The notes below the pieces were generated by a model. It saw only the letters and a list, made by a program, of their open reading frames with translations, had not been told where the DNA came from and ran no database searches. Shown here piece after piece: positions 36,481 to 47,432 of a stretch of 64,000 nucleotides of DNA. The DNA is from Rufibacter glacialis (GTDB lineage: Bacteria > Bacteroidota > Bacteroidia > Cytophagales > Hymenobacteraceae): contig NZ_VKKZ01000021.1 of NCBI RefSeq assembly GCF_008271745.1, positions 434,001-498,000 on the forward strand, given 5' to 3'. The stretch's first letter is position 1; every line of letters begins with the position of its first letter. The translations under genes and the position numbers were made by a program.

Positions 36481-36519
36481 AGATTCTCCCCTTGAGGGGA
36501 GTTAGAGGGGTGTTTACAC
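36481..36519 (+). repeat. Left 39-bp inverted repeat of the DUF559 cassette
   Basis: This stretch is the reverse complement of 36935-36973 with one mismatch over 39 bases. It contains an inner palindrome TCCCC-TTGA-GGGGA followed by GTTAGAGGGG and TGTTTACAC. Confidence 0.9.
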
Positions 36520-36551
36520 CTGCAGTAAATGTTTTACGTAAACTGTCTGCC

Positions 36552-36923
36552 ATGCCAAACAGAATCATCCCATACCGCCCAGACCTAAGGGAGAAGGCAA
36601 GACAACTGCGCAACAACAGCACCCTGGGAGAGGTATTACTTTGGGAAGAAATCAAAAACCGGAAACTAGGTCTTCAATTTCACCGGCAAGTACCCTTGCT
36701 CAGTTACATTGTTGATTTCTACTGTCATGGACTACGGTTAGCTATTGAGGTGGACGGAAGCAGCCATGATGAAAAAGGAGAATATGATTCTAAGCGGGAG
36801 CAGGAACTGAGCGCCTATGGGGTGAGATTACTCAGATTTGAGGACATGGATGTGAAGAGAAGAATGCCCTATGTTGTGCAGGAGATTCTTTATTGGATAG
36901 AAGACCACAAGAACCCGCAGTAG
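36552..36923 (+). CDS. DUF559 endonuclease-fold protein
   Basis: The 123-residue protein is a complete DUF559 member of the PD-(D/E)xK/Vsr-like nuclease fold: STLGEVLLWEEIKNRKLGLQ, FHRQVPLLSYIVDFYCHGLR (D in IVDFYC) and LAIEVDGSSHDEKGEYDSKR (E and D), then YGVRLLRFEDMDV. The acidic residues and the histidine are the expected metal and catalytic ligands. The gene sits exactly between two 39-bp inverted repeats, 32 and 11 bases from its ends, like a mobile or self-maintaining unit. ATG 36552 starts the conserved part; the frame also opens at 36432 through the left repeat, which is unlikely to be translated. Confidence 0.9.
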   Translation: MPNRIIPYRPDLREKARQLRNNSTLGEVLLWEEIKNRKLGLQFHRQVPLLSYIVDFYCHGLRLAIEVDGSSHDEKGEYDSKREQELSAYGVRLLRFEDMDVKRRMPYVVQEILYWIEDHKNPQ

Positions 36924-36934
36924 TAAGTTCTCCT

Positions 36935-36973
36935 GTGTAAACACTCCTCTAACTCCCCTCAAGGGGAGAATCT
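36935..36973 (-). repeat. Right 39-bp inverted repeat of the DUF559 cassette
   Basis: Mirror copy of 36481-36519 with a single difference (an A-T pair replacing G-C in the GAGGGG run). It begins 11 bases after the DUF559 stop and ends about 50 bases before the GH3 stop. Confidence 0.9.
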
Positions 36974-46910: not shown

Positions 46911-46943
46911 GACCTCACAGGTTTTGGAAACCTGTGAGGTCTT
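46911..46943. repeat. Palindromic repeat AGACCTCACAGGTTT, copy 1
   Basis: AGACCTCACAGGTTT and AAACCTGTGAGGTCT pair over 15 bases with a 3-base loop. The same palindrome recurs at 47396-47432. Confidence 0.85.
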
Positions 46944-47055
46944 GGCTCCCCACGTTTCAAGGCTTCAACTTAGGTTCTATGGCTCGGACATACTTACTTA
47001 ACTAAGGGCTCAAGGCAAAGCAGGTTCTCGGGGAAAAGGTGTGATAAGGGGAATT

Positions 47056-47168
47056 CCCTCTCCCTCCGGGAGAGGGTTAGGGTGAGGGGCAGCGGGCGTT
47101 CAAGGCAAAGGCTTCTCCAGTTAGGAACCTACTCCCCCTCATCCTAGCCTTCTCCCTGAGGGAGAAGG
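47056..47168. repeat. Inverted pair of CCCTCTCCCTCCGGGAGAGGG repeats
   Basis: CCCTCTCCC with GGGAGAGGG, then TTAGGGTGAGGGG (47056-47089) faces CCCCCTCATCCTAGCC with TTCTCCCTGAGGGAGAAGG (47134-47168). Each unit also folds on itself. The two are related (not identical) units in opposite directions with 44 bases between. Confidence 0.8.
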
Positions 47169-47395: not shown

Positions 47396-47432
47396 AAAGA
47401 CCTCACAGGTCTTGAAGACCTGTGAGGTCTTT
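47396..47432. repeat. Palindromic repeat AAAGACCTCACAGGTCTT, copy 2
   Basis: AAAGACCTCACAGGTCTT and AAGACCTGTGAGGTCTTT form an 18-base perfect palindrome around a single base. The outer part equals copy 1 at 46911-46943; the centre differs. Confidence 0.85.

Follow-up and report, generated by a model that had tools for sequence, protein, structure and literature searches.

A small DUF559 gene of Rufibacter glacialis, encoding a predicted nuclease, is framed by intrastrand-triplex repeats of a kind found beside DUF559 genes in many bacterial phyla

We analyzed a stretch of 64,000 nucleotides from Rufibacter glacialis (contig NZ_VKKZ01000021.1, positions 434,001 to 498,000; here called the window), which contains a short unit made of a small DUF559 gene between two inverted repeat arms. 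This unit is probably the gene-bearing member of a dispersed repeat family that has the DUF559 protein as its cognate enzyme, with dispersal resembling that of REP elements and their RAYT transposases and a Vsr-like nuclease in place of an HUH enzyme. Comparison of sequences reveals that repeats of this type are associated with small DUF559 genes, that their tails follow a mirror rule, that protein and repeat diverge together, that gene-less doublets of the repeats are dispersed, and that relatives of the window gene lie scattered over different loci. We infer that the protein binds and nicks the repeat, that a copying pathway follows, and that a triplex rather than the hairpin alone is the form recognized. 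Other loci and genomes are referred to by our own L and G labels.

The features of the unit are listed in Table 1. A first-pass annotation had described a DUF559 gene framed by near-perfect 39-bp inverted repeats, and this description was accurate: the arms are complementary at 38 of 39 positions and separated by 415 nt, the ATG (36552) lies 32 nt from the left arm, the end of the stop codon (36923) lies 11 nt from the right arm, and the profile match to the family is strong (Table 1). The neighboring genes, which we take to be AIM24-like and GH3-like, both converge on the unit. A local inverted-repeat test gave the arm pair a score of 36.5; 0/580 mispaired flanks and 0/103 neighboring ORFs reached 25. 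The 16-bp arm core, searched with up to 2 mismatches, has four matches in the window, namely the two arms on both strands, where shuffling expects 0.08. A strict scan for the triplex motif matched the left arm at 36486-36511 and missed the right arm because of its one tail change. By eye there was no direct duplication at the unit, the ends of which are not defined to the base.

Table 1. Positions of the DUF559 unit, its parts and a gene-less doublet in the window
Feature	Positions	Strand	Description
Left arm	36481..36519	+	stem CTCCCC-TTGA-GGGGAG, spacer TTA, mirror tail GAGGGG(T), then GTTTACAC
Small DUF559 gene, 123 aa	36552..36923	+	PF04480 E 5.9e-30; predicted Vsr-like PD-(D/E)xK fold
Right arm, inverted copy	36935..36973	-	single tail change (GAGGAG)
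Complete unit, 493 bp	36481..36973	+	arms + DUF559 gene
Gene-less doublet, L007-framing family	47056..47168		type A 47056-47088 +, type B 47136-47168 -

Read from the outside inward, the window arm (CTCCCC-TTGA-GGGGAG-TTA-GAGGGG) is a hairpin followed by a G-rich tail, and this tail is the mirror image of the purine strand of the stem, neither its copy nor its complement. The annotation had noted a palindrome within the arm; this corresponds to the hairpin stem CTCCCC-TTGA-GGGGAG, but the arm is more than a palindrome, and its mirror tail had been overlooked. Pyrimidine arm, loop, purine arm, loop and mirror purine tail follow one another as in intrastrand-triplex repeats, with one mismatch in the tail of the right arm. 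Judged by sequence, the window arms thus have the grammar of the published BoxC/PIT/TM intrastrand-triplex class, and the repeat type is not new.

The mirror rule was examined on arms picked by inverted-repeat score, independently of the triplex scanner; the scanner itself demands the rule, so that tails in the density, association and pairing counts given below obey it by construction. Among 134 small DUF559 loci, 58 had an inverted repeat scoring at least 16 (flanks shorter than 60 nt were left out) and yielded 116 arms. After arms without a G-rich tail, homopolymer stems and repeats of the same arm had been dropped, 68 remained for the count, and in 64 of these the stem was not identical to its own mirror. 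The tail fitted the mirror better than a direct copy in 53 of these 64 arms, worse in 8 and equally well in 3. A version with one arm per locus (41 loci, 32 distinct stems) found the pairing rule, G on G and A or T on A, obeyed at 255 of 277 positions, compared with 213.7 (sd 4.1) for permuted stems; the observed mirror fit was reached by 0/20000 simulations, and a direct copy of the stem as tail gave a z of 1.0 against permuted stems. Opposite a stem A, the tail carries T 35 times, A 21 times, and C and G 4 times each. Where the stem As shift between families, the tail shifts too: AAGGAGGGG occurs with GGGGTGGTT, GGGAGAAGGG with GGGATGAGGG, and AGAGGAGGGGG with GGGGGTGGAGT. Antiparallel purine-motif triple helices are built from these same triplets, G-on-G and A- or T-on-A. 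We also considered a direct-copy tail, as a half-site for a duplex-binding protein would require, and rejected it, since direct copies did no better than permuted stems and mirror copies did better.

To place the gene-repeat association in a wider context, two sets of loci were surveyed. The named set consists of the best 80 of 573 confirmed DUF559 matches, picked by protein similarity only, of which 72 are small. The Bacteroidota set consists of 72 loci from a longer list (3 from the R. glacialis genome, 29 and 40), of which 62 are small, and the sets have 2 identical proteins in common. At the 72 small loci of the named set (best 80 of 573), triplex-motif density was 2.83/kb within 300 bp of the gene; for the same loci (best 80 of 573) it was 0.30 at 300-600 bp and 0.02-0.09 beyond, and inside the gene bounds it was 0.60, by reading mostly due to arms that overlap the gene ends. 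A motif within 350 bp was present on either side of 62/72 small genes in the named set (best 80 of 573) and on both sides of 38/72; the Bacteroidota set gave 51/62 and 20/62, respectively. Neighboring ORFs more than 1 kb away had a motif on either side in 14/614 cases and on both sides in 1/614, and shuffled flanks in 12/360 and 0/360. Fisher tests for the named set (best 80 of 573) returned 2e-63 and 4e-41, which are rough values, as ORFs of one locus are not independent. When an inverted repeat scoring at least 16 was accepted in place of a motif, 66/72 genes of the named set (best 80 of 573) and 57/62 of the Bacteroidota set were framed or flanked. The strict scan found no motif at 10/72 and 11/62 genes, and neither motif nor such an inverted repeat was found at 6/72 and 5/62, the first figure of each pair again referring to the named set (best 80 of 573).

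The association spans 13 named phyla with at least one case each, as judged from sequence comparison; 68 of the 72 small genes belong to named phyla (best 80 of 573). Among these best 80 of 573, a motif accompanied 30/37 genes in Bacteroidota, 11/13 in Pseudomonadota and 4/4 in Acidobacteriota; 2/2 each in Nitrospirota, Nitrospinota, Chloroflexota and Cyanobacteriota; 1/1 each in Rhodothermota, Chlorobiota, Uhriibacteriota, Planctomycetota, Elusimicrobiota and Thermodesulfobacteriota; and 3/4 genes without an assigned phylum. The proposal of a REP/RAYT-like unit with another enzyme family thus gains from the presence of repeats of like grammar at most small DUF559 genes in both sets. Large DUF559-domain proteins, with their start set at the nearest ATG, had a motif on one side in 3/10 and 4/8 cases and on both sides in none. 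As a separate observation made by eye, the C-terminal ends of the DUF559 proteins at L015, L020, L075, L076, L080 and L086 resemble translated repeat, which may have been read into the gene.

These counts bear on the simplest reading, in which GC-rich, terminator-like hairpins happen to lie around small genes and form no system. The energies of the plain hairpins that single window arms form are modest (z -1.9 and -2.1), as that reading expects. However, a terminator does not need a mirror tail, and the reading is contradicted both by the mirror-rule test and by the low motif counts at neighboring ORFs and in shuffled flanks. We assign it a negligible probability.

The preferred reading, that each repeat family has a small DUF559 protein as its cognate enzyme, also draws on the way the two vary. 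A survey of the genus covered 27 of 33 congener DUF559 matches, 3 of the 27 being large. All 24 small genes examined (24/24) had a motif and the large ones had none (0/3), so the outcome that the first-pass annotation had named as fatal to its reading, absence of repeats around other DUF559 genes, did not occur. Within the genus protein clades go with particular stems: GGGAGAAGG/GGGAGAGGG in the L007 clade, AAGGGGG in the L008 clade, AGGGGAG in the window clade, and the similar stems GGAGGGG and (A)GGAGGGG in two more. An exception is L319 from a congener: its protein, which shares 63% identity with that of the window and is outside the count of the window clade, goes with an AAGGGGG-type stem. 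Separate DUF559 paralogues within one genome (that of R. glacialis and G210) go with different repeat families. Across 105 proteins less than 85% identical, stem distance tracks protein distance (Mantel rho 0.244; maximum of 2000 permutations, 0.130), with a weaker signal for pairs less than 50% identical (rho 0.117; maximum of 1000 permutations, 0.126). On a FastTree tree of 95 proteins, leaving out 10 proteins with other stems, four stem classes required 20 changes, compared with 42.7 on average and never fewer than 37 over 300 shuffles. At the level of sequence, then, protein and stem co-diverge. Clade-wise repeat families are expected both if the enzyme spreads the repeat and if it must recognize a target, so this result does not separate dispersal by the enzyme from homing.

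The R. glacialis genome contains two DUF559 genes besides that of the window, L007 and L008. L007 is framed by two nested inverted repeats in the order A-B-gene-B-A, with a sequence other than that of the window arms, and L008 has an inverted pair just downstream of the gene. The first-pass annotation proposed searching the genome for solitary and paired gene-less copies, and these proved to be dispersed. Window arms recur as gene-less pairs ~125 bp apart (L001, L004) and as a single copy (L006); the family has 8 intact arms in this genome, and across the 16 genomes of the genus the number per genome ranges from 1 to 40, with 0 in the reversed control. The L007 repeat (GAGA family) has 59 matches in the R. 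glacialis genome, with 0 in the reversed control; in four other genomes the picture was less clear, with matches versus reversed of 28/2 (G253), 20/14 (G252), 3/1 (G254) and none (G164). Of 20 sampled places of the L007 repeat in the R. glacialis genome, 14 are doublets whose tails point inward, one partner being of type A (stem GGGAGAGGG) and the other of type B (stem GGGAGAAGG), with each stem truncated in one case; the remaining 6/20 have one motif by strict scan. One such doublet lies in the window (Table 1). Another dispersed palindrome, GACCTCACAGGT...ACCTGTGAGGTC, was seen by eye twice near that doublet, at window positions ~46932-46945 and 47400-47431. Copy number compared with gene presence is suggestive for the GAGA family, but the window family is present in all 16 genomes. 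Repeats also occur in genomes that lack a matching gene: G210 has 59 copies of the GAGA family and 0/3 L007-like DUF559 genes, G205 has 14 copies and 0/2 among the genes examined (of 3), and G203 has 23 intact window-family arms and a sole DUF559 gene that is L007-like.

The combination of inverted repeats and short gene-less copies spread over the genome is reminiscent of MITEs, and an ordinary MITE or IS remnant would explain the arms as transposon ends mobilized in trans by a classical transposase, with DUF559 as a passenger. Against this stand the recurrence of the same gene family between arms in many phyla while the arm sequences differ, the lack of a direct duplication visible by eye at the window unit, and the RAYT-like genes of the R. 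glacialis genome, which lack the motif (RAYT-like genes being the transposase family searched); we regard the explanation as very improbable. The RAYT-like Y1 transposase genes in question (PF01797, L220-L223) had a triplex motif within 1.5 kb in 0/4 cases by strict scan, and a RAYT-driven repeat was rejected on this count.

We compared loci across the genus, judging shared flanks on ~1.2 kb per side. The ten genes of the window clade, from nine genomes, had common flanks in 3/45 pairs, which form one syntenic trio, and by this comparison of sequences the window clade has changed positions. By positions, there was no DUF559 match near the window's orthologous gap in 15 congeners. Among the 14 in which the gap was measurable, the left arm is kept in L046 and the right arm in L047, relics also found in the window-family arm search, and in three of these the gap is 104-132 bp long (by eye; eight long gaps were viewed in part). 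A length difference at this locus, on which the earlier reading had been made to depend, is present in close relatives. At a doublet site of the R. glacialis genome (L239), 3/15 congeners have a motif of a different family and 12 have none by strict scan, one of the 12 (L250) having a decayed copy by eye. At another (L224), the doublet is absent in 9/9 measured congeners, and L285 has another motif. At the site of a G201 unit (L325), 11 measured congeners have no motif; G203 has there (L342) one 32-bp palindrome in which two 15-nt arms flank CA; it matches a fusion of the two outer arm halves and is possibly an excision or collapse scar or a target. L007 and its G203 relative (L307) have both flanks in common, but crosswise, so that the unit appears flipped relative to the flanks, as though the stretch enclosed by its inverted arms had turned around. 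Clean empty sites, which had been proposed as a check, and target duplications were not found in the congener gaps of the four sites compared, which have diverged too far or contain other insertions for the ends of a unit to be fixed. A further intergenic repeat around GGGCAACCACAAGGGATTGCCC was noticed by eye in congeners L041, L046, L246, L284 and L338, in L338 as an inverted pair.

Two observations speak against simple mobility: the L008 clade is locus-bound, and repeats persist where no cognate gene is seen. The first fits an explanation by chromosomal control or repair, in which a host Vsr-like DUF559 enzyme processes triplex repeats and the flanking repeats regulate or insulate the gene. 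The L008 clade is indeed mostly at one locus across the genus (21/28 pairs with common flanks), and the E. coli counts given below, a gene found as a rule once per genome amid a near-ubiquitous repeat, point the same way. The different loci of the window clade and the different repeat families of DUF559 paralogues within one genome (R. glacialis and G210) weigh against it, and we consider it distinctly unlikely.

A homing-type cassette is somewhat less unlikely, though still not expected. Here the repeats would be dispersed by other means, and the DUF559 endonuclease gene would invade doublets by cutting uninterrupted ones. A homing endonuclease, I-Bth0305I, is among the nearest solved structures; gene-less doublets of the window family exist (L001, L004); the DUF559 gene lies between arms; and the G203 palindrome at the L325 site is one uninterrupted palindrome of two outer halves. 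On the other hand, an intact doublet in one genome opposite a doublet plus gene in a relative was not seen at any of the four sites compared.

Outside the genus, intrastrand-triplex repeats, also called BoxC and PIT, were described in E. coli by Holder et al. (2015; PMC4666352), who report, in the passages available to us, that the isolated motif strand forms a triplex (CD, NMR), that a duplex forms when the complementary strand is present, and that there is no DMS protection in vivo. In E. coli K-12 they list five inverted pairs, each joining a type A and a type B motif (PMC4666352, same passages). Arm grammar is identical to that of the window arms, the A + B inverted pairs are like the doublets described here, and dispersed copies are many per genome, as in the window and GAGA families. 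The same passages state that transposase or integrase remnants were not found near the motifs and report no mobility enzyme; the words "DUF", "endonuclease", "Vsr" and "ycjD" occur nowhere in its main text. As far as these passages go, the published description (PMC4666352) is without a gene partner, a clade-by-clade family pairing or a gene-bearing unit, which come from the present analysis.

A candidate partner does exist in E. coli K-12, where YcjD is a DUF559 member (ycjD, NC_000913.3 1351407-1351760; L010) with a repeat ~166 bp beyond the 3' end of its gene. The strict scan missed this repeat because of one stem mismatch; to judge from the passages of the paper, the repeat matches the E. 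coli motif except for a single mismatched triplet. With a 49-bp query and a loose E-value limit of 1, the repeat was found in 5376/5426 E. coli genomes at a median of 19 places, and ycjD was found by megablast in 3365/5426, as a rule once per genome. In two ycjD-less strains viewed, an efflux operon fills the gap after fabI, named eefRABC(D) in the part of PMC12817139 available to us; absence of ycjD as a clean empty site was rejected on this ground.

The protein itself is predicted by fold to be a small Vsr-like PD-(D/E)xK nuclease. An AlphaFold2 model of the window protein (pLDDT 89.3, pTM 0.82) resembles most closely, among solved structures, 3hrl, which is an endonuclease-like protein of Neisseria, and the homing endonuclease I-Bth0305I, which a profile search also recovered, followed weakly by Vsr (E 0.05); profile and fold matches to DUF559/PD-(D/E)xK Vsr-like proteins agree, with conserved residues kept. 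Residues invariant among 46 aligned DUF559 proteins include, in window numbering, R20, T24, E27, W31, R45, Q46, D55, E66, H72, D79, R82 and R95, and D68 is nearly invariant. The likeness to 3hrl (NGO0050) and I-Bth0305I (significant) and to Vsr (weak) thus extends to a related fold with conserved acidic residues and a histidine (D55, E66, H72 and near-invariant D68). I-Bth0305I is of the "EDxHD" type. Against NCBIfam and PADLOC, the window protein had only weak or below-cut-off matches, and Pfam lists the function of the widespread DUF559 family as unknown. Kosinski (2005; PMC1189080, as available in part) placed YcjD among putative PD-(D/E)XK nucleases, Vsr being a relative. Because of this assignment and the Vsr-like fold, a nickase that requires a DNA structure is a reasonable expectation for DUF559, not a result. 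In the literature available to us, no description was found of Vsr, I-Bth0305I or 3hrl with terminal triplex repeats such as the DUF559 arms.

The working model takes the small DUF559 protein as the most likely cognate enzyme of the repeat family that accompanies it. Each arm would fold as a pyrimidine strand, loop and purine strand, with a short spacer and a tail running antiparallel along the purine strand under the pairing rule (G on G, A or T on A), so that one arm can supply both a hairpin and a third strand. One strand of the window's doublet folds into a long hairpin (-34.3 kcal/mol, z -3.6, by a program without a triplex model). The protein would recognize this folded arm in single-stranded DNA, on the lagging strand or in a cruciform, during replication, and would nick at or near it. 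Repair or template switching would subsequently place copies of the arm pair, gene included or not, at other sites, and a unit would occasionally collapse to one palindrome. Copying by repair after a nick has been proposed in similar form for REP elements.

The likeness to REP/REPIN and RAYT systems, as available passages of PMC3733652 describe them, comprises short palindromes with a tag or tail, inverted doublets, a repeat-framed enzyme gene and many gene-less copies; the dispersed inverted gene-less doublets found here (A + B at 14/20 places) belong to this likeness. Those passages place an HUH Y1 tyrosine transposase between the repeats, whereas the window unit has PF04480, PD-(D/E)xK-type by family; they give a GTAG/CGTC tag, whereas the window unit has a mirror G-rich tail (PMC3733652). 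Read directly, the window arms have no GTAG or CGTC tag at the hairpin foot. By the tested features, no HUH enzyme and no GTAG/CGTC tag, the window system is not REP/RAYT, though it would work like one.

The repeat class and the DUF559 family are both known, and we rate their pairing as one system as new. The annotation had likewise known of no description of such a system; this stands for the pairing of DUF559 with the repeat, but the repeat itself has the grammar of the published BoxC/PIT/TM triplex class. No published link between the two was found in a literature search made largely without subscription journals and without preprints, so that an earlier description is possible. More broadly, small DUF559 proteins could form a separate class of mobility enzymes, single-domain Vsr-like nickases that recognize an intrastrand triplex and propagate a pan-bacterial repeat superfamily, E. 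coli BoxC among them, with no need for HUH, DDE, tyrosine or serine recombinases; we put this forward tentatively, with somewhat less than even confidence.

The DUF559 enzyme may be the missing partner that spreads triplex repeats. A link between DUF559 and these repeats offers one testable hypothesis for both, and it predicts which repeat each enzyme should act on. It would also provide a natural case of a DNA triple helix perhaps selected as a recognition structure, and REP-like systems would gain a second class of enzyme capable of driving them.
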